Origin: a virus
Length of the DNA: 25,343 nt
Reading direction: 5' to 3' (one strand)
Virus record (IMG/VR): IMGVR_UViG_3300046011_002258
Location: 1 to 25,343 of that record
Positions 1,211 to 24,791 of this stretch are shown one piece after another. Made by a program: the position numbers and the translations under genes. The notes beneath the pieces were generated by a model. The model was not told the origin of the DNA. It saw nothing but the letters and a program-made list of their open reading frames with translations, and ran no database searches. How positions within the stretch are numbered: the first letter of the stretch is position 1; each line of letters opens with the position of its first letter.

Positions 1211-1750
1211 CTAGTTATTCTCATCATCATCACCATAGATACCCGCGATTACTTTCGCGTGTAATTGCTTACGCATTACGGTAAATATCTCTGGACTATC
1301 GACGCTAGCAATAACCCTACGAATTAAGTTAGTTAATGAATAATTAGGGTTATCCTTATCCGCAGTATCTAGCCACTCGCTAGCCGTATGCTTATTTCCC
1401 GCTTCATAATTGGCTATAGCGCATAGGTTAGCAAGTGGGGCTATCGATCCACTAGGCGCGATAATTGCTAACTGCTGCCATAAGTTAATCAACTTATCGC
1501 GGTTATCCTCGCTAGTGATACCGATAGCATAATCTCTAACTTGAAGGTCAATTAGCGACCCGACTACTAGGTCAATAGTATCGCTATCCACTTCATCATC
1601 AGAGATTAACTTATTTATTGCTTCGACCCCATTAATCTCAAATTGCCTAACCTTACTTATCATAGTTTTTTCATCATCTATGTTAAGTAATGCTTCGAAG
1701 TTATCCCGAAGCTCATTAACTTTATTCTTATTTATCTCTATAGTCTTCAT
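1211..1750 (-). CDS. DUF4192-like family protein
   Basis: A 179-aa acidic, mainly helical protein of unknown function. The second half follows the pattern of the actinobacterial DUF4192 family: RDK-x2-NLWQQL (about 83-92), then IAPLANLCAIANYEAGNKHT (about 103-122), then a D-NPNYSLTNLI segment (about 131-142). The first 60 residues are not recognised, and family members are usually longer, so this would be a short form. It starts at an ATG preceded by GGGTAAG. It is the only minus-strand gene in this part of the window and has its own promoter (1799-1827). DUF4192 is common in Actinobacteria and their phages and supports the host assignment. Confidence 0.6.
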   Translation of the reverse strand: MKTIEINKNKVNELRDNFEALLNIDDEKTMISKVRQFEINGVEAINKLISDDEVDSDTIDLVVGSLIDLQVRDYAIGITSEDNRDKLINLWQQLAIIAPSGSIAPLANLCAIANYEAGNKHTASEWLDTADKDNPNYSLTNLIRRVIASVDSPEIFTVMRKQLHAKVIAGIYGDDDENN

Positions 1751-1798
1751 CTACTTACCCTATCTTTATTTTCTATCGTGGGGCTATCCCACTCTCCT

Positions 1799-1827
1799 AT
1801 TATGGGGTATATACCCTAGATAATCAA
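1799..1827 (-). promoter_or_regulatory. sigma-70-type promoter with a palindrome in the spacer
   Basis: On the minus strand a -35 TTGATT (1827-1822) and a -10 CATAAT (1804-1799) are separated by exactly 17 bases. The spacer contains a perfect 12-base palindrome GGGTATATACCC (1805-1816), which looks like an operator for a dimeric regulator. It drives the DUF4192-like gene. Related GGGTAT/ATACCC half-sites occur at 1827-1832, 1880-1885 and 2287-2292. Confidence 0.5.
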
Positions 1828-1927
1828 TACCCCCACCAAATAGAGATTATGGCGTGTCGTAGATATTAGCCTAGTTATAGGGTATATTCGCCCTAGCCTT
1901 CAGAGTGGGGGCAGATAGGTGGGAATT

Positions 1928-2095
1928 ATGGCTACGCGTAAGTATAGAGTGCCTAGTTATATTCGCCCTTGCGATAAGTGCGGGCAAGGTAAGGGATACC
2001 ATAGCGAGGGCGTAGATTATCGCTTATGCGATACTTGCTTTAAGGCTAAGTGTCTAGACCTTATCTCGCACTTATTAAGGGGAAGTAATGCCTAA
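1928..2095 (+). CDS. small CxxC/CxxC zinc-ribbon-like protein
   Basis: A 55-aa basic protein with two CxxC pairs: C15-x2-C18 (CDKCGQGKGY) and C34-x2-C37 (CDTCF). The spacing of 15 residues between pairs fits a treble-clef or zinc-ribbon fold that could bind nucleic acid or a host protein. It starts at ATG 1928 behind a GGTGGG-like ribosome site. The next gene starts inside its 3' end, with an 8-base overlap. Possible TATATT -10 at 1883-1888. It is the first plus-strand gene after the divergent promoter region. Function unknown; codon-scale overlap and the ordered Cys pairs argue that it is real. Confidence 0.6.
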   Translation: MATRKYRVPSYIRPCDKCGQGKGYHSEGVDYRLCDTCFKAKCLDLISHLLRGSNA

Positions 2096-2228
2096 GGTAA
2101 TCAAATCAAATACTGCCCTAATAGATAGGGAAGGTGAAGTATGGGTAGAAGCGGAATTAAGCGATACCCAAATTAAGCGGTTAATCAAGGCCTACGATAA
2201 ATTCGAAGTTAGCCTTAAAATAAAGTAA
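2088..2228 (+). CDS. small protein of unknown function
   Basis: A 46-aa protein starting at ATG 2088 with a very good ribosome site (AGGGGAAG, 3-10 bases upstream) inside the end of the previous gene. The sequence has a short beta-like N-terminal half (EGEVWVEAEL) and an amphipathic helix (QIKRLIKAYDKF), and a basic C-terminus. I do not recognise a family. It ends two bases before a long hairpin (2231-2273), so the two-gene unit 1928-2228 may be its own transcript. Confidence 0.55.
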   Translation: MPKVIKSNTALIDREGEVWVEAELSDTQIKRLIKAYDKFEVSLKIK

Positions 2229-2230
2229 AG

Positions 2231-2273
2231 ATAGCCCCCACGCTTATCCAAATCGGGTAAGTGGTGGGGGCTA
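2231..2273 (+). terminator. long stem-loop after the first two small genes
   Basis: An 11-bp perfect stem ATAGCCCCCAC/GTGGGGGCTAT (2231-2241 with 2263-2273) is extended inward by CTTATCC/GGGTAAG with one G-U pair, giving a near-continuous hairpin. It follows the stop at 2228. No T run follows it, so it may stabilise RNA 3' ends or act as an atypical terminator rather than a classic one. Confidence 0.45.
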
Positions 2274-2286
2274 TTACTTGCGAGTA

Positions 2287-2356
2287 ATACCCTATAATAA
2301 ATAGAGGGAGAGAGTGAGCGAACGCTCACCGAGAGAGAGAGAGAGAGAGAGCGAGA
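2287..2356 (+). promoter_or_regulatory. promoter -10 plus hairpin and GA-tract leader
   Basis: A perfect TATAAT (2293-2298) follows an ATACCC half-site (2287-2292); the -35 is not clear. The presumed 5' leader then has the perfect inverted repeat GTGAGC-GAAC-GCTCAC (2314-2329) and an uninterrupted GA run (2331-2351) reaching almost to the GTG start at 2357. The purine run probably serves as an extended Shine-Dalgarno. The 12-base core GAGCGAACGCTC recurs at 2970-2981 in front of another GA run and gene. Confidence 0.5.
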
Positions 2357-2716
2357 GTGATAGACCTAATAGGCGTTAACACTTATGCCCAAATAGTTAT
2401 GGAAAAATTAGAGGGCGAGGGAGAGTTAACCGATAAATTCAATGAAATAATTAATTCGCTAGAGAGTAAGTTAGCGGATAGGCAAGAAGTATTATCTAAA
2501 CTAGAGAGTAAAGCTAGAGAGATAGATAGCGATAACCTATGGAATAAGTATGAGAGTGCTGATGAAGCCTATGGTTATGGGGGTGAACTTAAATCCTTGC
2601 TAAGTGATTATCTATGCGGTTATGAGGATAAAGAAGGGTTAGAGTGGCAAGTGGCCGATCTAGTTAAAAAAAGTGGCAGCGAACTATTATATAGATTAGA
2701 GCGTTCCCAATGGTAA
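2357..2716 (+). CDS. hypothetical coiled-coil-like protein
   Basis: A 119-aa acidic protein starting at GTG 2357, directly behind a GA-rich leader. Residues about 18-60 look like a charged helix or coiled coil (FNEIINSLESKLADRQEVLS), and the C-terminal half is acidic with aromatic residues. Family not recognised. It overlaps the next gene by 7 bases. Its position at the head of the plus-strand micro-gene run suggests an early protein that acts on the host, but nothing in the sequence shows the target. Confidence 0.6.
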   Translation: MIDLIGVNTYAQIVMEKLEGEGELTDKFNEIINSLESKLADRQEVLSKLESKAREIDSDNLWNKYESADEAYGYGGELKSLLSDYLCGYEDKEGLEWQVADLVKKSGSELLYRLERSQW

Positions 2717-2871
2717 TCACTAGCATAGATAAGAATAGGGAAGGTGCGTGGCGTATATCTGCCTTCGTAGGTGAGGGAATAGATGAATACCTATTGACTA
2801 AGACCTACTATTTCTATACTAAGCGGGAAGCTATCCGCTTATTTAAGCAACAAATAAAAGAAAATAAATAA
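2710..2871 (+). CDS. small hypothetical protein
   Basis: A 53-aa basic protein starting at ATG 2710 inside the end of the preceding gene. The N-terminal part looks like a small beta-sheet (GAWRISAFVGEGIDEYLLTK), followed by a basic helix (KREAIRLFKQQIKENK). It resembles short phage proteins that fold as a three-stranded sheet plus helix, but I cannot name a family. Translational overlap with 2357-2716 supports expression. It ends eight bases before a strong hairpin (2879-2917). Confidence 0.5.
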   Translation: MVITSIDKNREGAWRISAFVGEGIDEYLLTKTYYFYTKREAIRLFKQQIKENK

Positions 2872-2878
2872 TCAAAAT

Positions 2879-2934
2879 ACTAGGCTAGTCTGCCCGAATA
2901 GGGTAGGCTAACCTAGTGCCCTATGAAGATAGGG
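2879..2934 (+). promoter_or_regulatory. two adjacent hairpins between gene blocks
   Basis: The first hairpin pairs ACTAGG with CCTAGT (2879-2884, 2912-2917) and AGTCTGCCC with GGGTAGGCT inside it (two G-U pairs). The second is CCCTAT-GAAG-ATAGGG (2919-2934). Neither is followed by a T run. They separate the first transcript block from the second GA leader, and could be a processing site, an RNA stabiliser or part of the leader of the next gene. Confidence 0.4.
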
Positions 2935-2968
2935 AGAGGGTAAGAGAGTGAGAGAGGGAGAGAGGGAG

Positions 2969-3004
2969 AGAGCGAACGCTCTATCCTAATTAGAGAGAGA
3001 GAGA
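2969..3004 (+). promoter_or_regulatory. second copy of the hairpin plus GA-tract leader
   Basis: The hairpin AGAGC-GAAC-GCTCT (2969-2982) contains the same 12-base core GAGCGAACGCTC found at 2316-2327. It is embedded in purine-rich DNA (about 2931-2972) and followed by a GA run (2991-3003) that abuts the ATG at 3005. The repeated order hairpin, GA run, start codon indicates a shared translational or regulatory leader. Confidence 0.5.
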
Positions 3005-3316
3005 ATGATCAACGCTAATCTAGTTCGTAATCGTATAAGTGAAGCAGAAGCTATCGCTTGGGATAACTGCCATAAGATTTATATCCTTATGGATAGTGAG
3101 CAAGTAGACCTTATGCGTGGCTATGGGTATGACCCAATAATCACCAATGAGGAGATGAACCCTGACGATATGTTTGATGAAGTTAAAAAGTGGTATGAGA
3201 ATAGTTGCTCATTACGCTTTATTCAGGCGGTATCTACTAATGATATAGACCCTAATCTGGGATTTGAGAGTTTAGTATCTCAGTTTGAAGATCAAGATGA
3301 GGAGATATCAGTATGA
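3005..3316 (+). CDS. hypothetical acidic protein
   Basis: A 103-aa acidic protein beginning at ATG 3005 after a GA run that acts as the ribosome site. It has an N-terminal helix (about 5-25), a short hydrophobic strand (KIYILMD, about 24-30) and a strongly acidic tail. Similar proteins occur in small-gene regions of phages, but I do not recognise a named domain. It is coupled to the next gene by a GTATGA overlap (the ATG starts 4 bases before the end). Function unknown. Confidence 0.6.
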   Translation: MINANLVRNRISEAEAIAWDNCHKIYILMDSEQVDLMRGYGYDPIITNEEMNPDDMFDEVKKWYENSCSLRFIQAVSTNDIDPNLGFESLVSQFEDQDEEISV

Positions 3317-3600
3317 ATACAATAAACAAACTTACTATTGATGAGTGGGATAAGAATTACAAACCTATCACCAATAAGTTTGATAAAAATGCCTCGTTTA
3401 ATGGGGTTATGTTTGAAACCTATGGGAAAGAGCTTGATTATGTGCTGACCCATAAGAATAATAAAATATGGACCCTAATAGACACAAGCAAGGGAGATAT
3501 AGCAATAATTAACGGCTATCACTTAGTTAATCGTATCGGCTACTTTATTACCAAGTCTGTTTGGGTAGAGGAGTATATAACTGTGGAAATGGGTGAATAA
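3313..3600 (+). CDS. conserved phage hypothetical protein
   Basis: A 95-aa protein coupled to its upstream neighbour by an ATGA overlap. The sequence reads as a compact mixed beta fold: FETYGKELDYVLTHKNNKIW (about 30-49), then TLIDTSKGDIAIINGYHLVN (about 50-69), then RIGYFITKSVW. Short proteins with a GYH-x-VNRIGYFIT-type motif recur in phages of many aquatic bacteria, by memory of the pattern and without a search. No catalytic residues are evident. Its stop overlaps the start of the next small gene by one base (TAATG). Confidence 0.6.
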   Translation: MNTINKLTIDEWDKNYKPITNKFDKNASFNGVMFETYGKELDYVLTHKNNKIWTLIDTSKGDIAIINGYHLVNRIGYFITKSVWVEEYITVEMGE

Positions 3601-3731
3601 TGAGTTATACCGTTTGGGTAGGTGGTGGAGAGATTAACTCTGACTTACTAAATTATGAACAAGCCAATTATCTAGCAGGGTATTGGATAGGTAGAGGTTA
3701 TGATGATGTGAGAGTGGAGGAGGTTAAGTAA
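3600..3731 (+). CDS. very small phage protein
   Basis: A 43-aa protein starting at the ATG that overlaps the previous stop (TAATG at 3598-3602) and ending where the next ATG begins (3731). The pattern is a beta-hairpin (YTVWVGGGEIN), an amphipathic helix (NYEQANYLAGYWIGRGYDDV) and a short strand (VRVEEV). This beta-helix-beta layout is common among tiny phage proteins that sit in such cassettes. Function unknown. The exact junctions on both sides are the main evidence that it is real. Confidence 0.55.
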   Translation: MSYTVWVGGGEINSDLLNYEQANYLAGYWIGRGYDDVRVEEVK

Positions 3732-3973
3732 TGAAAGGTTATTTTGTAATAGATAGGCAGGATACAGGGTGGAAAGAAGGCTACCTATGGAAATCTATTA
3801 AAGAGATAGCCGACAGTATCCGCGATTATGATGACTATAAAGAGTTAGAAGTATCTCATTTAACTCACTCACAAGTTTGCGACTTATGGGACTTTGAGTA
3901 TCACCGAATAACACCCGCTAATTGTAATAAATATGGTGTTAGACCTAGTGAACTAACAAGGGAGTATCTATGA
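3731..3973 (+). CDS. hypothetical protein
   Basis: An 80-aa protein whose ATG shares one base with the previous stop and sits behind GGAGGAGG, a very strong ribosome site (3717-3724). It has an N-terminal strand-turn-strand (KGYFVIDRQDTGWKEGY), a central helix (SIKEIADSIRDYDDYKEL) and the segment LTHSQVCDLWDFEYHRITP. Function unknown. It ends in CTATGA, coupling it to the next gene. Confidence 0.55.
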   Translation: MKGYFVIDRQDTGWKEGYLWKSIKEIADSIRDYDDYKELEVSHLTHSQVCDLWDFEYHRITPANCNKYGVRPSELTREYL

Positions 3974-4107
3974 AAGCTACACCGGCAATATGTGGCGATC
4001 ATCTAGTCCCAATAAGCGAGTGCGACTGCCTCAGTTATATGAGGGAGATAGCAAGTGCAGCAGAACGATTAATACAACTAACAAAAGAGAGAGAGGAAAT
4101 GAGATGA
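3970..4107 (+). CDS. small cysteine-containing protein
   Basis: A 45-aa protein starting at ATG 3970 in the CTATGA junction with the previous gene and ending in an ATGA junction with the next. Three cysteines and a histidine lie in the first half (C8, H11, C18, C20), followed by a charged helix ending in EREEMR. A metal site is possible but unproven. A longer ORF in another frame covers the same DNA (from 3990), but the coupled junctions favour this frame here. Function unknown. Confidence 0.45.
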   Translation: MKATPAICGDHLVPISECDCLSYMREIASAAERLIQLTKEREEMR

Positions 4108-4238
4108 AAGATATCTGTCAATTCTGTGGGTGGGAAGTAACTAAACCTGAATGGTATAATTACTACAATAAAAAACCATTATGCGATGACTGCAATATGG
4201 ATATGTCGCTTGAGAGAGAGAGGGAGAACTCTTTATGA
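4104..4238 (+). CDS. mini zinc-ribbon protein
   Basis: A 44-aa protein starting at ATG 4104 behind the purine-rich site GAGAGAGAGGAAATGAG and overlapping the previous stop (ATGA). It has two CxxC pairs: C5-x2-C8 (CQFCGWEV) and C26-x2-C29 (CDDCNMDM), a zinc-ribbon spacing. The frame is open upstream to 3990, but the added 38 residues are the out-of-frame shadow of the previous gene, so 4104 is preferred. It is one of four Cys-pair proteins in this plus-strand cassette. Target unknown. Confidence 0.6.
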   Translation: MKDICQFCGWEVTKPEWYNYYNKKPLCDDCNMDMSLERERENSL

Positions 4239-4399
4239 GTGAGATCAAGGGCTATGAATTCACAGAGGGCGAGGGCGATACTATTACCTGCGATTATTGC
4301 AATGAGGTATTTGGTAGCTGGTATAGCGATCTTACCCACGCTATATGTAGAGCTTGTTTAATACATAAGATAGTAATAGGGGAGAGGGAGAGCGTATGA
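4235..4399 (+). CDS. mini zinc-ribbon protein
   Basis: A 54-aa protein coupled to the previous gene by TTATGA and to the next by GTATGA. Cysteine pairs C19-x2-C22 (CDYCNEVF) and C38-x2-C41 (CRAC) with H35 nearby fit a small zinc-binding ribbon. The N-terminal 18 residues are acidic. The GA-rich stretch at 4211-4226 supplies the ribosome site. It probably binds RNA, DNA or a host protein, but the sequence does not say which. Confidence 0.6.
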   Translation: MSEIKGYEFTEGEGDTITCDYCNEVFGSWYSDLTHAICRACLIHKIVIGERESV

Positions 4400-4608
4400 A
4401 GGTGAGTAAGGTACTAGAACAATTAAATGATATGCCATTAGATGAAGAGTTAGTTATCAAGTGGTATAGAAAACAAGAGGTAGAAGAGTATAAGAAGAGA
4501 GAGATAAGCAGGGAAGTTTGGGAGTTTATTACCCAATGGGCGCCCGATTATATTTCAGAGGAAGACTTTGGGATATCAAGACTACTAGATAAAGCGGAGG
4601 AAGATTAA
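4396..4608 (+). CDS. hypothetical protein
   Basis: A 70-aa acidic, helix-rich protein starting at ATG 4396 behind GGGGAGAGGGAGAG. The sequence begins with KVSKVLEQLNDMPLDEELVI, a pattern seen in small phage proteins with a helix and a short beta strand (the expected strand being EELVIKWY). Function unknown. It joins the following gene by a TAATG overlap at 4606-4610. Confidence 0.55.
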   Translation: MKVSKVLEQLNDMPLDEELVIKWYRKQEVEEYKKREISREVWEFITQWAPDYISEEDFGISRLLDKAEED

Positions 4609-4874
4609 TGGGTAATATATTAGAGATATTCAATGAGCAAAAGAGAGATGTTGTTTTCTATGAGGTATCAGACTCTCAAGGTATAGCTATATGGGGCGGA
4701 GAAAATGTCCTAGAGGCCATTAAATGGTATCGTAATAGTCCTCCTGATAGTAAGGTTTGGGTGGGACAGTATGAAACGACAGAGGAGGAGGCTAAGTTAA
4801 CTATGGAGTTCATAGAGATTACGCCTATTGTCCTTGCTACTATTGCTAATTGTGTGGACAGGTGGCAGCAATGA
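4608..4874 (+). CDS. hypothetical protein
   Basis: An 88-aa acidic protein starting at the ATG that overlaps the previous stop. It has an alpha-beta character: FYEVSDSQGIAIWGGENVLE (about 17-36) followed by AIKWYRNSPPDSKVWVG (about 37-53), and a helical C-terminal half. I recognise no domain. An ATGA junction couples it to the next gene. An antisense ORF across the same region (4676-4912) is taken as a shadow. Confidence 0.55.
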   Translation: MGNILEIFNEQKRDVVFYEVSDSQGIAIWGGENVLEAIKWYRNSPPDSKVWVGQYETTEEEAKLTMEFIEITPIVLATIANCVDRWQQ

Positions 4875-5095
4875 GAAAACAAGCAAGACAAAGAACAGAG
4901 GCCGCCAAACAAAAAGCAATTAACTATAGAAATTACCGCAGAGTGAGAGATAGAGCACTAGCTAGATTAAGTAGAGAATACCCTGAGGCTTATCGAGCCT
5001 TTTACGAAGAGGAGTTAAAAGCTGATGAAAATATGGGTAAGAAATGGCTTGATATCGCTGGCAACACTAAGTCTAATCGTTTTCGCAGAAGGTAA
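4871..5095 (+). CDS. small very basic protein
   Basis: A 74-aa protein very rich in Arg and Lys, starting at ATG 4871 in an ATGA junction with the previous gene. The frame is also open from a GTG at 4850, but the junction and the preceding GGTGGCAGC favour 4871. The N-terminal 35 residues form a long basic helix (KQARQRTEAAKQKAINYRNY), a pattern compatible with nucleic-acid binding. Its last 71 bases overlap the next gene in another frame. Family not recognised. Confidence 0.55.
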   Translation: MRKQARQRTEAAKQKAINYRNYRRVRDRALARLSREYPEAYRAFYEEELKADENMGKKWLDIAGNTKSNRFRRR

Positions 5096-5447
5096 GTTAT
5101 CAACACCAACAGTAAAACAAATACCAAATGGAGTTATAGAGAATAGGAAGGCAACACAAGATGAGAAGAGTCGTAATAGAAAGCTCGCACAAGAGTACGC
5201 TTCGGCTGGTTGGGACTGGAGAGGAAAAGAGTGGACCTGCCTTAAGTCCCTTTGGACCCGTGAGAGCAGGTTTGATAACTATGCAAAGAACCAAAGAGGA
5301 TCAAGTGCTTACGGAATTGCTCAACTCCTTAGAGAGAAAGATAGCAGAGCTGAATTTCAAATCTTACGAGGCCTTAAATATATTGATGCTCGCTATGGCT
5401 CCCCTTGCAAGGCCTACAACTTTTTCCTTAGAAACAACTACTACTAA
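5025..5447 (+). CDS. secreted lytic transglycosylase-like protein
   Basis: A 140-aa protein with an N-terminal signal or anchor sequence (hydrophobic core about 8-21, after K2 and R6). The C-terminal domain has the lysozyme-like transglycosylase pattern of Actinobacteria: W70-x-CLKSLWTRES with E80 as likely catalytic acid, SSAYGIAQLL (93-102), and GLKYIDARYGSPCKAY ending in YY. C72 and C128 could form a disulfide. It would cleave the peptidoglycan glycan strand outside the membrane. It starts 71 bases inside the preceding gene and is the last gene before the terminator. It is not in the lysis block, so it may act early, for example at the envelope of the infected cell; that is inference. Confidence 0.7.
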   Translation: MKIWVRNGLISLATLSLIVFAEGKLSTPTVKQIPNGVIENRKATQDEKSRNRKLAQEYASAGWDWRGKEWTCLKSLWTRESRFDNYAKNQRGSSAYGIAQLLREKDSRAEFQILRGLKYIDARYGSPCKAYNFFLRNNYY

Positions 5448-5497
5448 TGAGTATGATAGTATTTAATTATTGATCGGCTCTCTCCGATCTAGAAAAG

Positions 5498-5537
5498 GAA
5501 AGCCTTGCCCCCCTTCCGGCAGGGCTTTCTTTGTTTT
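5498..5537 (+). terminator. Rho-independent terminator of the plus-strand cassette
   Basis: A 12-bp stem GAAAGCCTTGCC/GGCAGGGCTTTC (5498-5509 with 5518-5529, one G-U pair) is followed by TTTGTTTT. It lies 50 bases after the last plus-strand gene. A smaller perfect hairpin GATCGG-CTCTCT-CCGATC (5472-5489) precedes it. Confidence 0.85.
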
Positions 5538-5540
5538 GTA

Positions 5541-5576
5541 AAGACAAAAACCCCTTCGGGATAGGAACCGAAGGGG
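5541..5576 (-). terminator. Rho-independent terminator of the minus-strand replication block
   Basis: A perfect 9-bp stem CCCCTTCGG/CCGAAGGGG (5551-5559 with 5568-5576), read on the minus strand, is followed by TTTTTGTCTTT. It lies about 60 bases past the methyltransferase stop and faces the plus-strand terminator. Confidence 0.85.
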
Positions 5577-5633
5577 CTATTGCCAGCACTCAACTGAGTA
5601 TAGGACCCAGCCTTGTACTATAAGTATAACAGA

Positions 5634-9141: not shown

Positions 9142-9952
9142 CCCTTCTATACATTCTACCCATTGCATCTGAATCACTGATCTGACATACCTCATAGTTA
9201 ACAAATAAACCAACGTGGTCAGAGCCATCCGCAGTATGCGGTCCAAATCTATTCTTAACTGCAGCTATCTTTAATACTTTATTGTATGGATCAAAGCCAA
9301 GCGTAAGTATTAGTGCCGGTAATTGAGATACTTTACCGTGAATTGCTCTACGAGCAGGTGGTTCAGTGGTCTTGCCATACTCTGTTTGTTCGCTGACGTG
9401 GTGCAATACCATCACACAAGCCTCAGTCTTACGAGCCATATCGTGGAACTCCACCATAATAGATCTAAGTCCTGCCCACTCATTATCAGATTCTGCTGCC
9501 ACATTCATTAGGTTATCTATTACAACCAGCTCTGGTGGAACTCCAAACAATTCAACATAGGCCTTTATCTCTAACTCAATATCATCTAATGATGGTGATG
9601 AATCAAAGACAAACTGTATGCTATCTAAATTACCTAGATGCTTATCGTAGTAATGACGATTACTAGTTAAGTTATTCTCCACCATAATCTGGCTGTGTCC
9701 TGATAAGTGGGCTGCTGCCCTCATCATTACCGTTGCAGTATCTGTATCTGCCGAGAAGAATAAAGTAGGAACCTTTGCTTTGATTATATAGATAAGAGCA
9801 AACATACTCTTACCAACATTGGGCGCAGCAGCAATCATACATACCTGACCTCTGCGAAACTTAATCTGTTTTTTAGATAGAGTTTCCCATACGTCAGGTA
9901 GTGGTGTTGCATTAGTGGTTGACCCACGCCACGCCCTGTTTAAATTAAGCAA
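9110..9952 (-). CDS. DnaB/RecA-type ATPase, probable replicative helicase
   Basis: A 280-aa protein. It has a RecA-like core with Walker A AAPNVGKS (42-49, with the first Gly replaced by Ala), a sensor-like FFSADTDTATVMMRAAAHLS (about 65-84), Walker B LVVIDN with D146, and VMVLHHVSEQ (H184-H185) as the H3-like motif. This order is typical of phage helicases of the DnaB superfamily 4 group that lack the N-terminal DnaB domain. It would unwind DNA with the primase encoded downstream. Its ATG overlaps the whiB end by 8 bases. The short C-terminal part lacks any special domain. A RecA-like recombination ATPase is the alternative. Confidence 0.78.
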   Translation of the reverse strand: MLNLNRAWRGSTTNATPLPDVWETLSKKQIKFRRGQVCMIAAAPNVGKSMFALIYIIKAKVPTLFFSADTDTATVMMRAAAHLSGHSQIMVENNLTSNRHYYDKHLGNLDSIQFVFDSSPSLDDIELEIKAYVELFGVPPELVVIDNLMNVAAESDNEWAGLRSIMVEFHDMARKTEACVMVLHHVSEQTEYGKTTEPPARRAIHGKVSQLPALILTLGFDPYNKVLKIAAVKNRFGPHTADGSDHVGLFVNYEVCQISDSDAMGRMYRRDAIYSDSKIQ

Positions 9953-10208
9953 CGTCTTCCTTCTTTAAAGTTATACCTCTGGCAGATCTAATACGTTTTC
10001 TTTCATCAACATTTAATCCACCCCAGATACCGAAATACTCTTGGGTAATACCCCACTCAGCACACTCTGCTAAATAGGGACATCTATTACAAATGCTTAC
10101 TGCTGTTTTAGTATGAGTCCGATGGCTTGGATCTTCTATATCGGGGAAATATATTTCCATTCCAACTTCTGCACATAACGGGTTCTCAAATTCCCAAGGA
10201 ACCCGCAT
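9945..10208 (-). CDS. whiB: WhiB-family iron-sulfur transcription regulator
   Basis: An 87-aa protein with all WhiB hallmarks: C12, C40, C43 and C49 (CNRCPYLAEC) to bind a [4Fe-4S] cluster, followed by the turn GIWGGL (60-65) that contacts the sigma factor, and the basic tail ERKRIRSARG for DNA binding. W5 and the PDIEDPSHRT segment also fit. WhiB proteins modulate the host's main sigma factor; the phage copy likely steers or imitates host regulation. It sits between the exonuclease module and the helicase. The ribosome site is weak (AAGAAA). The gene ties the phage to Actinobacteria. Confidence 0.9.
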   Translation of the reverse strand: MRVPWEFENPLCAEVGMEIYFPDIEDPSHRTHTKTAVSICNRCPYLAECAEWGITQEYFGIWGGLNVDERKRIRSARGITLKKEDVA

Positions 10209-10211
10209 AAA

Positions 10212-10685
10212 TTATTTCTTAAATTTTGATACAGAGTCTGGATAAATCGGATCAACCTTTACATAGCCAGGACCCATACGTACAGGCTTTGGTCCTGCTG
10301 CTGGATCACACCAAGCCCAATATGGAGAGCCATCTTTTCTAACACCAGCCTTGTGTATCATCTTTCCATTAACACAATCAGGTGCATCAGCTCTGTTGTA
10401 TGTATATACAGAACCAAACTTATCTGTAAGCACATCACCATCAGTATCTGTTGCTATTGATGTAGCACCTAATGCTTTCTTAGCATAAGAGATAGCACCG
10501 CCTCCATTAAATGATTGTGGTGTTGCACCTAGTGTGGTGCCTGTAGTTGTTATCAATGTTGATAGATCAGACAATGATGTTAAAGATAATTCTAACTCAG
10601 CCTGATTAGTTGCGTAGATATTTATTAAAGTTCCATCAGCTAACTTATAGTTAACCTGAAACTTTGTGCTTTCCGGTGCAGCCAT
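10212..10685 (-). CDS. hypothetical protein with Cys/His segment, possible DNA-binding partner of exonuclease
   Basis: A 157-aa protein not assigned to a named family. The N-terminal 50 residues are beta-rich with Ser/Thr, and the middle holds a Gly/Ala-rich stretch. The C-terminal part has C104-VNGKMIH-x14-C126 (with H111) and aromatic residues YWAWCDP, which looks like a small metal-binding or strand-turn-strand unit. It overlaps the exonuclease stop by one base (TAATG) and precedes whiB. Its place beside a Cas4/RecB-like nuclease would suit a single-strand binding or annealing factor; that is inference only. Confidence 0.45.
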   Translation of the reverse strand: MAAPESTKFQVNYKLADGTLINIYATNQAELELSLTSLSDLSTLITTTGTTLGATPQSFNGGGAISYAKKALGATSIATDTDGDVLTDKFGSVYTYNRADAPDCVNGKMIHKAGVRKDGSPYWAWCDPAAGPKPVRMGPGYVKVDPIYPDSVSKFKK

Positions 10686-11641
10686 TACTTACCTCCAGTA
10701 TATTTGACAGTTAATCGTACTGATTCCTGTCCCTTTTTAATTGGTACATTACCGAGAAGTTTTTTAACCTCATCGATATCTACTGACTCTCGACCAGCTA
10801 TGGTGCTCCAACTAATTTGGATACCACTATTAGTCTGACCAGTAAATCCTTCTAACGAACTCTTTAATGACTCCTTCTCATTAGTAAGTTCTTTTATCTT
10901 TGCATCTAATTGTAGATATTTCAAAGCGGATGTGTCAACCTCTGGGTTGTCTATAAATACTTCACCCTCTTTGATAAGTTCTTTTTTTATACCAGTACAT
11001 CCAATCTTGCCCGACTCATCAAAGTACTTGCAATAGAACTTGCAGTAACTTTGATCGCGCTCTGGCTCTGGTGCAATTGCGCTCTCTTTGATAGCTGATA
11101 ACCAATTCAAAGCATCTTGTGCTAGTGATTCATCATAAGGTTCTGAATGAACTTTGACATCTCGCTCATCACCATCACGGGCGATGGCTACTAGGTTAAC
11201 AGTCTTGGGCTTCCCTTTCCCAGACTTATCAAGTAAGTAGCCATACACCTGTACTTGCCAACGCTGTTGTAGCGAAGGAAAGTAGGATAGATTTTTTACC
11301 TTAACGGTTTTCCAATCTATCACATCTCCGGTCTCTGGTATATATAAATCTATATGAGCTTTCATTCCTTCAAACTCAGCCTCTGTCTCAACCAAATACT
11401 TCTCACCCTTTGGGTCAAGTGCTGATATAGCCTTCTCAATCTCAGCGTGAATAGCAGTACCCATAATGGCAGCCAACTTTAATTCATTATCATTAGTTGC
11501 ATCTCGCCCATTGAGACGATACCAAACTTTTCTACGGCAACCACCTAACTCTGATGGACCTACCTGGGTTTGCTTTGATCTAGATCTACCGGCATCTTTA
11601 GCTCGTAGAACATCAATCAATAACTGCTTTGGATCGCTCAC
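10685..11641 (-). CDS. Cas4/RecB-like PD-(D/E)XK exonuclease
   Basis: About 318 aa. From the GTG start at 11641, C35 lies in SELGGCRRKVWYRL, H65 in MGTAIHAEIEKA, D98 in MKAHIDLYI, D109-x-K111 in VIDWKTV, then the QxxxY-type helix QRWQVQVYGYLL. Three more cysteines (CKFYCK and GC) lie near residue 200-215, so an iron-sulfur cluster with C35 is likely, as in Cas4 and AddB-type nucleases. The C-terminal third has a coiled coil (about 255-285). It would trim DNA ends for recombination. GTG 11641 overlaps the previous stop and has GGGGA 6 bases upstream; GTG 11653 would add four residues. Confidence 0.75.
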   Translation of the reverse strand: MSDPKQLLIDVLRAKDAGRSRSKQTQVGPSELGGCRRKVWYRLNGRDATNDNELKLAAIMGTAIHAEIEKAISALDPKGEKYLVETEAEFEGMKAHIDLYIPETGDVIDWKTVKVKNLSYFPSLQQRWQVQVYGYLLDKSGKGKPKTVNLVAIARDGDERDVKVHSEPYDESLAQDALNWLSAIKESAIAPEPERDQSYCKFYCKYFDESGKIGCTGIKKELIKEGEVFIDNPEVDTSALKYLQLDAKIKELTNEKESLKSSLEGFTGQTNSGIQISWSTIAGRESVDIDEVKKLLGNVPIKKGQESVRLTVKYTGGK

Positions 11642-12793: not shown

Positions 12794-12982
12794 TTACTCT
12801 GAGCCTCTACCAAATTCTGTAGCTGATGGATCTAGCCACTTCAATAATGGTCCTGCTAGACCTGCTAATGCTGCTGCTCCTAATTGCTTAGGATCGGTGA
12901 TTCCACTTACATACAGTGCAACTGCTGCTGCGGCTGCTGCTCGGAACCAACTTAGTGCTGCTTGCTTGAACGTTGGGTTCAT
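12794..12982 (-). CDS. holin-like small membrane protein
   Basis: A 62-aa protein with two Ala-rich hydrophobic segments (about 8-26, AALSWFRAAAAAAVALYV, and about 35-48, AAALAGLAGPLLKWLD) separated by a polar turn. The tail is charged. This small, Ala-rich, double-helix layout beside an endolysin gene fits a holin or spanin-associated membrane protein. The ATG at 12982 has GGAGAG upstream. It is the last gene before the late terminator. Confidence 0.55.
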   Translation of the reverse strand: MNPTFKQAALSWFRAAAAAAVALYVSGITDPKQLGAAALAGLAGPLLKWLDPSATEFGRGSE

Positions 12983-12993
12983 TTTCTCTCCTT

Positions 12994-13497
12994 CTATTTT
13001 GTCTTGCTATGCACCTTGCAACAGGTACACACTGGGACTTTATATGCTTTTTTTGCTGGTGTAGTCATAACCGAAGCAATCAAAGTATTGATCGCCTTAG
13101 GTTGATTCATCCACCAGAACCAAGGTGATGTGTCATTTGCTGACCCATCATTAATAGAAATATGTAAATGTTTATTATGTTGATTACTGCCGGTATAGGT
13201 ACGGTTACCTTCTTTAGCCTTTTCTTTAGACCAGATCTTTCCCTGAAATATTAGGTACTTAACTCTTGCATCTTCTTTTAACTTCTCAAATATCTCTACG
13301 CAATCCACACCATTCTTAGGATCGTGAGTTAAATCAACTGCTAATCCAGTATTGTGATCTGAGTTAGGGTTTTGTTTAATGTGTGCCGATGAAGGCAATA
13401 GCCCGTCTGACAGCTTCTTGCGCTTCGGATATAAGGCTGTTGCTTGGCGTAGCACAGCTATCGCAGCAGGAGTTGCCCTCTTTGCAAGTATTTTCAT
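12994..13497 (-). CDS. endolysin, M15/VanY-like peptidase
   Basis: A 167-aa protein. Metal ligands H48 and D55 lie in NSDHNTGLAVDLTHD, and the HxH motif is KHLHISI, with H112 as the third ligand. This is the M15 peptidase (VanY/DacY) pattern that cleaves the peptide cross-links of peptidoglycan. Upstream residues 29-41 (LSDGLLPSSAHIKQ) fit the same fold. The C-terminus has the cysteine triad CTCCKVHSK, possibly a wall or metal-binding tail. No signal peptide is seen, so release depends on a holin. It overlaps its upstream neighbour by 4 bases. Confidence 0.75.
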   Translation of the reverse strand: MKILAKRATPAAIAVLRQATALYPKRKKLSDGLLPSSAHIKQNPNSDHNTGLAVDLTHDPKNGVDCVEIFEKLKEDARVKYLIFQGKIWSKEKAKEGNRTYTGSNQHNKHLHISINDGSANDTSPWFWWMNQPKAINTLIASVMTTPAKKAYKVPVCTCCKVHSKTK

Positions 13498-13975: not shown

Positions 13976-14224
13976 CTATGAAATGCCTTTTTCTAGTAAT
14001 AATAAATGTAGTGCGTTAATCTTATCTGGTCTAAATCCTGACCAATGGAAGTTGTTATATACAACTACAGGTGCTTGTTTATATCCTAAATCTTCTGCAA
14101 CTTTTTTAGCATCCTCATCTTCACTCATATCTACTGATGAGTACTGCACTTTATACTTATCTAAAACTTTCTTAGTCATATCGCATTGGATACAATCTGG
14201 TAATGTGTAAACTATTACTGCCAT
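13976..14224 (-). CDS. nrdH: glutaredoxin-like (NrdH-type) redoxin
   Basis: An 82-aa protein with the thioredoxin-fold start AVIVYTLPDCIQCDMTKKVL (active-site C11-x2-C14), a central VDMSEDEDAKKVAED helix, and the conserved cis-Pro region APVVVYN followed by HWSGFRPDKI. This order fits NrdH, the small electron donor of class Ib ribonucleotide reductase. No reductase gene is in the window, so it may serve the host enzyme. It sits between the lysis genes and the structural genes. The ATG has GGGGGAAA upstream. Confidence 0.78.
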   Translation of the reverse strand: MAVIVYTLPDCIQCDMTKKVLDKYKVQYSSVDMSEDEDAKKVAEDLGYKQAPVVVYNNFHWSGFRPDKINALHLLLLEKGIS

Positions 14225-16965: not shown

Positions 16966-18648
16966 TTAGACTGCATATCTTATTATAACGATACCTGACC
17001 CACCAGCACCTGATGTTGTGCCAGTATTACCACAGTTACCACCACCACCACCGCCTGTGTTAACTGTTCCTGCTGTTCCAACAACATTAGCACCAGCACC
17101 ACCTGCGCCACCACCGCCAGTACCACCTGCACCAGCAGCTAAGTTTCCACCTCCACCACCACCACCTGCATAAGTTACTGAAGTTCCACTAATTGAAGAT
17201 GCTGTACCTGCACCACCATCACCTGAAGTAGCACCACTAACGCCAACTGCGCCAGCACCACCACCACCACCGCCTCTATATGGTTGTCCACTTGGAGATG
17301 AACCAGCGCCGCCATCATTACCTTGTCCTGCTGTACCTGCGCCACCTGCTGAGCCACCGCTACCAAACATATTTCCACCGCCACCACCTGAACCACCACT
17401 ACTTCCAGCAGATGCAGTATCACCACCTCTACCTCCTGCACCACCAGCAGTTGATGTGATTGTTGAAAATACAGAGTTATTACCGTTATTGCCTTGAGTT
17501 TCTTGCGTTGATTGTCCAGCGCCACCAGCACCAACAGTCACTGTGTATGCCTGTGCAGTTAAAGATAAAGCTGAACCACCAATAGAAGTTCTAAAACCAC
17601 CAGCTCCTCCACCACCAGCACCTACACCACCTTTACCAGCACCTCCTGATCCGCCTCCTGCTACAACTAAGTAATCAGCACTTAAAGATTGGTTTGGAGT
17701 AAACGTTCCTGATGATGTAAATGTGTGAATCCAATATCCATTATCAAATGTAATAGTTCCACCAGTTGCTTTAGCAACGGCAGTAACAAAATTACCTGAT
17801 GAAGTAAAAGTATGAATCGTGTTACCACCTGATGTAGTTACAGTTCCGCCAGTTGCTTTTTGTACTGTACCAGAGTAGCGGGCTACAACAATTCCTGAGC
17901 CGCCAGCACCACCATTAGTGGTTCCTGCTGCACCACCGCCGCCACCACCACCAGTATTTGCAGTTCCTGCATTTCCATTACCTGAGCCAACTCCACCACC
18001 GCCGCCTCCTGCGCCACCTGATGAACTGCCTCCATTTGAACCACCACCACCGCCACCTGCATAAGTTATGGATGAACCAGTTATAGATGTAGCAACTCCT
18101 GTGCCTCCATTTGTTGGTACACTATTTTGTCCACCATCGCCACCTGTTGCACCAGCACCACCACCGCCATTACCTGAATAATCTCCGGTGAACATACCTG
18201 AACCAGCAACACCATTACCACCTCTAAAGCCTTGACCGGTAGTTCCAGTACCACCATTTAAACCTGAACCTACACCCCAAGTTGCACCGCCACCACCTGA
18301 ACCACCATTAGGATTTGAAGAAGCATTAAAGTCACCACTACCTCCTCCACCAGCAACAGAGGTAATTGTTGAAAAAATTGAATCATTACCTTTTGCACCA
18401 GCAGTACCACTTGAGCCACCACTGCCACCAGCACCAATTGTTACTGTGTAACTAGTATTAAGTGTAAGTGTTAAGGCTGATTCAAGAGTTCCACCGCCAC
18501 CTGTTGCAGTTACTGTTGAACGCAAACCACCAGCACCACCACCGCCACCGCGACTTCCACCACCACCAGCACCACCAGCAACAACAAGGTAATCAACAGT
18601 GATGCTACGAACGGAATCTTGAGATGCAATAATCCCTAAGATTGGCAT
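16966..18648 (-). CDS. glycine-rich tail-fibre or adhesin protein
   Basis: A 560-aa protein made of two homologous glycine-rich units. Each unit opens with a DYLVVAGG-type strand (residues about 19 and 326), runs through long glycine-rich loops that carry TVTIGAGGSG or TVTVGAGGAG and SITYAGGGG or SVTYAGGGG, and closes with GGSGIVV-x-RY. A short segment (IHTFTSSG-x-F, twice) links the two. Such poly-glycine domains sit at the tip of some phage fibres, for example gp38-type adhesins of T-even phages, where they bind the host. That parallel is from architecture only. Its DNA is rich in CCACCA-type codons, which explains shadow ORFs in other frames. Confidence 0.65.
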   Translation of the reverse strand: MPILGIIASQDSVRSITVDYLVVAGGAGGGGSRGGGGGAGGLRSTVTATGGGGTLESALTLTLNTSYTVTIGAGGSGGSSGTAGAKGNDSIFSTITSVAGGGGSGDFNASSNPNGGSGGGGATWGVGSGLNGGTGTTGQGFRGGNGVAGSGMFTGDYSGNGGGGAGATGGDGGQNSVPTNGGTGVATSITGSSITYAGGGGGGSNGGSSSGGAGGGGGGVGSGNGNAGTANTGGGGGGGAAGTTNGGAGGSGIVVARYSGTVQKATGGTVTTSGGNTIHTFTSSGNFVTAVAKATGGTITFDNGYWIHTFTSSGTFTPNQSLSADYLVVAGGGSGGAGKGGVGAGGGGAGGFRTSIGGSALSLTAQAYTVTVGAGGAGQSTQETQGNNGNNSVFSTITSTAGGAGGRGGDTASAGSSGGSGGGGGNMFGSGGSAGGAGTAGQGNDGGAGSSPSGQPYRGGGGGGAGAVGVSGATSGDGGAGTASSISGTSVTYAGGGGGGGNLAAGAGGTGGGGAGGAGANVVGTAGTVNTGGGGGGNCGNTGTTSGAGGSGIVIIRYAV

Positions 18649-21971: not shown

Positions 21972-22747
21972 TTATAGTACATATCTTACAATTACAACAC
22001 CTGAACCACCAGCGCCTGAATTTGCTTGATACATTCCCATTCCACCATCTCCAGTATTCGCTGCACCACTTGTACCAGGGGAAATATTATAAGCATAATT
22101 TACTCCGCCACCTCTGGAATATGTTACTGAAGTACCAGTTATAGAACTAGCACGACCTGCTGCTCCAAAACTTGTTGGTCCTAAAGGTGGGGTATTACCA
22201 CTTGCCCCACCACCAGCACCTGCGTTACCGCCACCGCTATTATCATTTCTTCCAGCTCCACCATAACCAGTTAATCCACCAGAGTTTCCTTGAGTTGCTG
22301 CACCACCATTTGAGTTGTTTCCGCCACCACCGCCAGATCCACCTGAAAGACCAACGCCACTAGCACCGCCACCACCACCGCCAAGTGCAGTTGCATTATC
22401 AAAAACAGAATTTCCACCATTTTCTCCTGCTTGATTAGCGCCAGTTCTTACTGCTCCACCAGCGCCTACAGTTACTGTAAAAGAACCTACTGTTAAATTT
22501 TTATCTCCTTCTAAATACCCACCAGCGCCACCGCCACCTGCGCCATTTGTGTCATATCTAGCGCCACTAGCACCGCCAGCTATTACCAAGCAATTTACAG
22601 TGCCAATACCTTTTGCAATATCAAAACTAGTAGTACCAACAGTAGTAAAAGAGTGGACTTTAAATCCAGTTATATTGGTAGTAGTGCCACCAGTTGCTCT
22701 TATTGCTTGGTTGTTAGCACCACCTAAAATTCCAGCAGGAAAAGGCA

Positions 22748-22748
<1 letters not shown>
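21972..22748 (-). CDS. glycine-rich fibre-like protein (single unit)
   Basis: About 258 aa from ATG 22748, which overlaps the previous stop (TAATG). The frame is open further upstream to 22778, but the first ten residues there lie inside the collagen-like gene. It is one unit of the same type as the two in the 560-aa protein: NCLVIAGGASGARY, then TVTVGAGGAVR, then SVTYSRGGG, ending GGSGVVIVRYVL. So the region carries three copies of this unit. The role is likely fibre tip or host adhesion. Confidence 0.62.

Positions 22749-24791
<2,043 letters not shown>

Follow-up and report, generated by a model that had tools for sequence, protein, structure and literature searches.

A candidate RNA boundary element at the joints of a mosaic micro-gene cassette in freshwater actinophages

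Hypervariable runs of tiny orphan genes occur in most phages, and how such genes are exchanged without wrecking their expression is an old question. Here, we analyzed the IMG/VR virus record IMGVR_UViG_3300046011_002258 (25,343 nucleotides (nt), called the window, to which all positions refer), whose positions 1928-5447 hold a cassette of 15 forward-strand micro-genes, A to O. The locus is a mosaic accessory cassette in freshwater actinophages related to phages of 'Candidatus Planktophila' ('Ca. Planktophila') and, from its sequence, it is probably best read as short runs of overlapping micro-genes separated by a portable RNA boundary element. The initial annotation of the region was concerned with the micro-genes and passed over this element, which lies in the only two gaps of the cassette (2229-2356 and 2872-3004) and is in our opinion the more interesting object. 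Because it reassorts against the genes on both sides, the element marks the joints of the mosaic.

Structure and distribution of the RNA boundary element

A short sequence, GAGCGAACGCTC, was the first sign of the element: two occurrences lie in the window and others in a dozen relatives, without exception upstream of gene O. Alignment of its surroundings gave a unit of about 100 nt composed of the pairings P0 (GTGG/CTAC), P1 (14-17 pairs), P2 (7 pairs) and P3 (9 pairs), with P0 and P1 forming together a helix of about 20 pairs with an internal loop. P3 is followed by a GA-rich or GATAGGAG ribosome-binding tract and then by the start codon; in the window, the predicted GA-rich tracts are those of gene C (2337-2356, forward strand) and gene E (2992-3004, forward strand). 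Copy 1 of the element (2229-2336, forward strand) has P1 at 2230-2275 and P3, GTGAGCGAACGCTCAC, at 2314-2329. Copy 2 (2872-2993, forward strand) begins directly after the stop codon of gene D and has P1 at 2878-2918, P2 at 2919-2934 and P3 at 2964-2987, with GAGCGAACGCTC at 2970-2981. Both copies fold far better than shuffled sequences (z -6.3 and -5.5, respectively); a hairpin scan that tolerated only mismatches missed P1 of copy 1 because of a bulge.

RNAalifold and pair counts revealed strong covariation. In the first alignment, 96.3% of 492 cells were paired, compared with 38-47% in slid controls, and 16 pairs carried two-sided changes versus 8.9 in shuffles. The second subclass, aligned independently (19 sequences), showed the same fold, with 100% of cells paired and 9 two-sided pairs versus 1.5 in shuffles. 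G-U cells far outnumber A-C cells (52 versus 2 in P1 and 21 versus 0 in P3), which shows, at the level of sequence, that the element is conserved as an RNA structure of the coding strand; a DNA cruciform or recombinase site as the main cause of the hairpins was rejected on the same ground. In five loci (L021, L022, L024, L042, and L043), the region upstream of gene O contains a variant hairpin between genes, TCATTA-aaagc-TAATGA, with GA tracts behind it; this hairpin is possibly a further subclass of the element.

Two covariance models, R1 and R2, were used to search 1.1 Mb and gave 98 matches at E<=0.01, 96 of them on the coding strand; about 70 related loci carry the element. In the window, matches are confined to the two gaps, copy 2 with 60.4 bits (R2, E 3.8e-10) and copy 1 with E 0.0026 for R2 in the 1.1 Mb and E 8.7e-5 for R1 when run unfiltered on the window alone. 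Where the locus contains gene O, all 62 elements among the matches listed lie 1.3-4.2 kb upstream of the end of this gene. The start of the element is flush with the upstream stop codon in 58 of 72 cases (7% expected), the TAG stop itself being the first codon of P0 in 24 cases, and the distance from the end of the element to the next start is 11-23 nt for most of them. The gene that follows belongs to any of 30 families, and of the 303 pairs of elements that match at 70 or more bases, 219 are flanked on either side by unrelated sequence, as exemplified by the elements of loci L035 and L085, 99% identical over 94 nt. The joints carry a defined RNA structure that can be searched with covariation models, making gene shuffling and expression testable at named sites.

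Genuine micro-genes in a mosaic order

The initial annotation had counted about fifteen micro-genes, a number that agrees with the 15 frames found, and had let their reality depend on purifying selection among relatives. We collected relatives by scanning viral contigs (about 95 loci, the relatives of gene A coming from a separate scan), and all 15 frames recurred in related freshwater viral contigs. The pooled ratio of nonsynonymous to synonymous change (dN/dS) was 0.11-0.39 for B to O (14 testable genes, the pairs not being independent), whereas false-frame families of open reading frames (ORFs) from the same regions, our internal control, gave 0.5-2.2. The cassette micro-genes are therefore genuine, with purifying selection on the 14 testable ones.

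For the cassettes at large, ORFs present in at least three of 62 non-redundant upstream regions were clustered into 83 families, an approximate partition in which some clusters merge or split true families. As the initial annotation had warned, such frames are easy to miss: ab initio codon scoring skipped real genes, I, K, M, and N among them, and families were judged by selection for this reason. By this measure, 59 families had dN/dS <=0.5, their median length being 60 aa; the ratio was higher in 19, several of which can be seen to be other reading frames of real genes. In phages of Nanopelagicales, many genes below 60 aa are probably overlooked by annotation. One could argue, as the codon score recovered only part of the genes, that the small frames are mostly spurious ORFs of an AT-rich region and the hairpins chance or assembly artefacts; this is contradicted by dN/dS, by recurrence across many independent assemblies and by covariation, so we regard it as refuted for both genes and element, and its probability as negligible.

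Gene order was compared over 85 or more loci, as had been suggested. The end unit M-N-O is present almost everywhere and I-J precedes it in most loci, while genes B-H, K, and L come and go. The first run of the cassette, entirely on the forward strand like the rest, consists of gene A (1928-2095, 55 aa), with 7 relatives in viral contigs at 62-76% identity, and gene B (2088-2228, 46 aa; 22 loci; dN/dS 0.19), which overlaps A by 8 nt. After the 128-nt gap that holds copy 1 come gene C (2357-2716, 119 aa, GTG start; 4 loci; dN/dS 0.15 from a single usable pair) and gene D (2710-2871, 53 aa; 20 loci; dN/dS 0.21), overlapped by 7 nt. Beyond the 133-nt gap with copy 2, gene E (3005-3316, 103 aa; 17 loci; dN/dS 0.23) is joined by a 4-nt ATGA overlap to gene F (3313-3600, 95 aa; 4 loci; dN/dS 0.25), followed through a TAATG junction of 1 nt by gene G (3600-3731, 43 aa; 17 loci; dN/dS 0.39) and, again with 1 nt, by gene H (3731-3973, 80 aa; 6 loci; dN/dS 0.11). 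Overlaps of 4 nt connect H, I, J, K, and L: the near-constant anchors I (3970-4107, 45 aa; 67 loci; dN/dS 0.23) and J (4104-4238, 44 aa; 64 loci; dN/dS 0.29), gene K (4235-4399, 54 aa; 17 loci; dN/dS 0.20), and gene L (4396-4608, 70 aa; 40 loci; dN/dS 0.25). The constant anchors M (4608-4874, 88 aa; 78 loci; dN/dS 0.25), N (4871-5095, 74 aa, basic; 81 loci; dN/dS 0.31), and O (5025-5447, 140 aa; 84 loci) close the unit, with overlaps of 1 nt for L/M and 4 nt for M/N. The initial description of genes joined by 1-7 base overlaps from 2710 onward holds for most junctions but fails at the gap between D and E and at the 71-nt overlap of N and O (5025-5095), which, with the gap between B and C, are the exceptions to the 1-8 nt overlaps. 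From the ATGA/TAATG overlaps, translational coupling of the genes involved is probable.

The N/O overlap, missed in the initial annotation, is out of frame (+1); of 77 loci, 51 have exactly 71 nt and 18 have 68 nt (69 in all). Synonymous change (pS) in N falls to 0.23 inside it, compared with 0.53 outside, and by this pattern the overlap is conserved and dual-coding. It encodes the N-terminal hydrophobic segment of gene O, ahead of a lysozyme-like domain. The C-terminal domain of O matches NCBIfam AggPromo_Cterm (NF052397) with 58.8 bits (cut-off 40), the gene matches phage transglycosylase families (phrog_12661, E 5e-16), and SLT (PF01464) scores 18.9 bits, below the gathering cut-off of 21.3, with 18 of 25 relatives at E<=0.01. 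Actinophage proteins with AggPromo_Cterm or SLT (phrog_12661 and phrog_15428) share with O the invariant E80, an SSAYGIAQ-type motif and the C-terminal domain; unlike them, O is free-standing, with its hydrophobic N-terminus encoded in the 71-nt overlap with N. The gene also stands apart from the phage's own holin and M15-like lysis genes (12794-13497, reverse strand). In the two cultured 'Ca. Planktophila' phages LanE43-AprE7 (E7) and LanE43-AprF5 (F5) (OX376640 and OX376641; PMC10202952), another gene, WhiB, lies upstream of O, yet the start of O is again signal-like. From these matches, gene O is a predicted lysozyme-like cell-wall enzyme, which is probably exported. Two loci carry N and O as a one-frame fusion (L072 at 2633-3205 and L075 at 4574-5083), either real or a sequencing error, and in L038 gene O is duplicated (near 10001-11400), the copies being separated by about 590 nt and sharing 74% and 90% identity with that of the window.

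The region had been called the one least explained by known families. This is true of A to N, for which none of the Pfam and NCBIfam families scanned gave a match above its curated cut-off, but not of O, given its AggPromo_Cterm match. The two CxxC pairs noticed from the outset in genes A, J (CxxC-x18-CxxC), and K (CxxC-x15-CxxC) are present in each, and the scattered cysteines of gene I correspond to four C/H positions followed by a helix: two of these, C8 and C18, do not vary, and the remaining two swap C/H among relatives (alignment A5), giving CxxH-x6-CxC versus CxxC-x6-CxxH, such that four candidate metal ligands are kept. Gene A weakly resembles zinc-type ribosomal protein S14 (NF005974, E 0.0014, far below cut-off). 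For gene M, a confident model (pLDDT 88) was obtained, a fold without match; an assignment to ERH (best Z 5.2, 65 residues at 3.6 A) was within the noise range and was not used. Genes M and N gave no match in annotated phages, no relative of M was found in species genomes, and profiles of J, O, and M against solved structures returned nothing usable.

Possible roles of the element and of the cassette

In a polycistronic mRNA, the element would be a portable boundary between mini-operons. Because the P0-P1 helix, with its roughly 20 pairs and internal loop, adjoins a strong ribosome-binding site, it would most likely be a site of double-strand-RNase processing or of mRNA stability, of the kind seen in the T7 early region. 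There, RNase III sites are long hairpins, interrupted by an internal loop, that lie between early genes and precede ribosome-binding sites. The likeness is one of layout, as the sequences are unrelated and P2 and P3 are additional hairpins. Processing would release the mini-operon that follows, its 5' end shielded by a hairpin and its ribosome-binding site a strong one, and the near-identity of elements between genomes would allow homologous recombination to swap whole mini-operons with their reading frames intact.

Some observations weigh against this reading. Copy 1 is divergent and matches the models weakly, and the element was not found in E7 and F5; therefore, it is dispensable to the phage family. 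The identical elements with unrelated flanks could in part be explained by metagenome assemblies that became chimeric at a repeat shared between genomes. Against chimeras, the same junctions appear in independent assemblies (L004/L005/L008, L033/L039/L061, and L073/L077), with frame and spacing preserved.

The element is new to catalogues, and its layout resembles that of SAS/ESAS, PeSL, and the T7 RNase III sites. It has no Rfam entry: the window had no match at gathering score in Rfam 15, and a permissive search of 1750-5600 gave none on the element. A strict element pattern was found in none of 84,980 species genomes. The SAS/ESAS elements of cluster K mycobacteriophages (Pope 2011, PMC3203893; Freeman 2024, PMC11373665) are likewise intergenic, in one orientation, in the non-structural region of actinophages and followed by many gene families, with an inverted repeat of about 17 bp and then an AGGAG-type sequence just before the start codon. 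P1 is such a repeat upstream of the start, with 14-17 pairs, kept as structure and not as sequence, and GATAGG[AG]G, also the SAS core, lies in or just after 35 of 72 elements. However, the 13-bp SAS, GGGATAGGAGCCC, with up to 2 mismatches allowed, was found in none of the 72 elements with 70 nt of downstream sequence, and membership in SAS was rejected. Unlike SAS/ESAS, the element has three hairpins kept by pairing rather than by half-site sequence, P2 and P3 have no described counterpart, and its occurrence is restricted to one cassette.

The promoter-stem-loop (PeSL) cassettes of T4-type phages, reportedly described by Arbiol in 2010 and Comeau in 2014 (cited in PMC4503421), are repeated intergenic stem-loops between small genes of a hyperplastic region, thought to promote modular shuffling. 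Recurrence between unrelated small genes with reassortment is also what the 30 next-gene families and the 219 of 303 pairs display. The stem of the PeSL stem-loop terminator is present too, with none of 36 sequences showing a T tract behind P1; as for a promoter, the element offers only a -10-like TATCCT and no conserved -35. Compared with PeSL, no early promoter was identified, the terminator T tract is missing, RNA covariation takes the place of a promoter motif and the phages are unrelated. The element would work like SAS/ESAS and PeSL but, since their defining features are only partly found, it is not a member of either.

A different possibility, which we consider doubtful, is a transcription joint, in which P1 would terminate the upstream unit and a promoter in or after the element would restart transcription, as in PeSL/ESAS, the helices being partly incidental or repressor-binding. 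The order of stop, stem, ribosome-binding site, and start is the same, the ESAS of mycobacteriophage Adephagia holds putative SigA promoters and inverted repeats (PMC11373665), the TATC-TAC that follows P1 is almost invariant and reads as the -10-like TATCCT, and the phage encodes its own sigma-70-like gene. However, the 8 nt after P1 contain only 3-4 T, and 5 T in none of the 36 sequences, while the real terminators of the phage have a T run (5495-5532, forward strand, at the end of the cassette's unit, and 5549-5578, reverse strand, at the end of the opposing one); plain termination is therefore unlikely, and P1 as an ordinary intrinsic terminator was rejected. Moreover, there is no conserved -35, the segment expected to hold one covaries as a helix, and promoter-like sites in the region are no more frequent than in shuffles. 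It is improbable, too, that the element is a translation-coupled switch. P0 is UAGUGG, including the upstream stop codon, pairing with CUACUA, and P2 uses the same CUACU to pair with AGUGGGA, so that the two would be mutually exclusive: a terminating ribosome would open P0, P2 would form and access to the next start would change, or a phage micro-protein would bind one of the states. Despite the shared strand, each pairing is preserved at 92-100% in two separate alignments, and in the 24 cases mentioned the stop codon itself is within P0; but P0 hardly varies, which gives little covariation support, P2 has only 1-2 pairs with two-sided changes, and P0 is not formed in the window copies. An extension of this idea, which we think quite improbable, is a new class of phage regulatory RNA in which the ribosome finishing the upstream micro-gene, or a zinc micro-protein, would toggle P0/P2 and set the expression of the mini-operon plugged in behind; such a toggle would be a plug-and-play RNA adaptor that regulates newly arrived genes at once.

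A further proposal, compatible with the boundary element, concerns the proteins. The locus could be a host-takeover island, as the initial annotation supposed, whose micro-proteins would, soon after infection begins, switch off or divert transcription, translation, or proteolysis of the host, with J as a mimic of the ClpX zinc domain or as a Gin-like anti-sigma factor; we hold this version tentatively. Small zinc proteins appear enriched in the cassette (two-CxxC families are 9 of the 59 under selection versus 4 of 191 small ORFs elsewhere, p = 4e-4), and the locus is hypervariable, phage-specific and crowded with small zinc proteins of treble-clef-like type. Structure prediction, advised for the Cys-pair proteins, gave for J a treble-clef-like AlphaFold2 model (pLDDT 82) with ClpX zinc-domain chains among its top fold matches (Z 4.4 to 2ds8, a value equalled by other zinc folds). 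Relatives of J (n=29) reach E 0.0016 at best with PF10764 Gin and, in 7 members, E 0.011 at best with zf-C4_ClpX, while the window protein itself had no listed match to either profile. All these similarities are below cut-offs, and treble clefs are generic. E7 and F5 have WhiB in the same locus, a class with a known host-regulatory role (TM4 WhiB, cited in PMC10202952). In mycobacteriophage Adephagia, toxicity or inhibition was seen for 25 of the 66 genes tested (PMC11373665), and by analogy the prior for some growth-inhibitory cassette members would be substantial. The pure form of the proposal is opposed by a unit that ends in a muralytic enzyme and by the most constant genes, M, N, and O, having no demonstrated host action. 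Host takeover is a fair guess for the cassette, whose proteins probably act as small regulators directed at host or phage and in many cases bind zinc. The approximately 59 conserved small families, nine with paired CxxC, can be screened for effects on a very abundant group of freshwater bacteria.

Phage family, host and neighboring genes

A nucleotide search of the whole window against annotated phages gave no match, whereas protein searches led to E7 and F5. The core genes in common include the M15-like endolysin (77%), the holin (71%), part of the terminase (40%) and the sigma factor (29%), with further matches to primase, DnaB-like helicase, WhiB, and gene O. By these genes and their layout, the window phage belongs to the Planktophila phage family of E7 and F5, and because its core proteins match theirs, we infer Nanopelagicales as the host order. 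The locus of E7 and F5 is alike in having the terminase on one side, gene O and the sigma factor on the other and CxxC micro-genes between; it differs in the micro-genes themselves, in the absence of a detected boundary element and in harboring WhiB inside the cassette, directly before gene O. WhiB of F5 (L101) is at 26074-26361, within the cassette and with a 4-nt overlap with gene O, and that of the window lies amid replication genes (9945-10208, reverse strand); within the family, the gene has moved from one locus to another. OX376640 and OX376641 were deposited unannotated under the organism name 'Caudovirales sp. ct2KA10', by which they escape name searches.

Elsewhere in the window, searches for tRNAs and against Rfam found none. 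A stretch of about 850 nt without a convincing gene (360-1210), GC-rich and palindromic at 440-600, is a possible origin or packaging region; it is flanked by the left-end gene, kin of the N-terminal part of the E7/F5 terminase, and by a gene for a DUF4192 domain protein (1211-1750, reverse strand; Pfam E 4e-12), divergent to the cassette. A phage-encoded glutaredoxin (13976-14224, reverse strand; Pfam E 1e-11) adjoins the lysis genes. Finally, collagen-like GPTGATG repeats and glycine-rich proteins adjoin the tail region (22748-24454, 16966-18648, and 21972-22778, all on the reverse strand), resembling the second hypervariable island described for E7 and F5.

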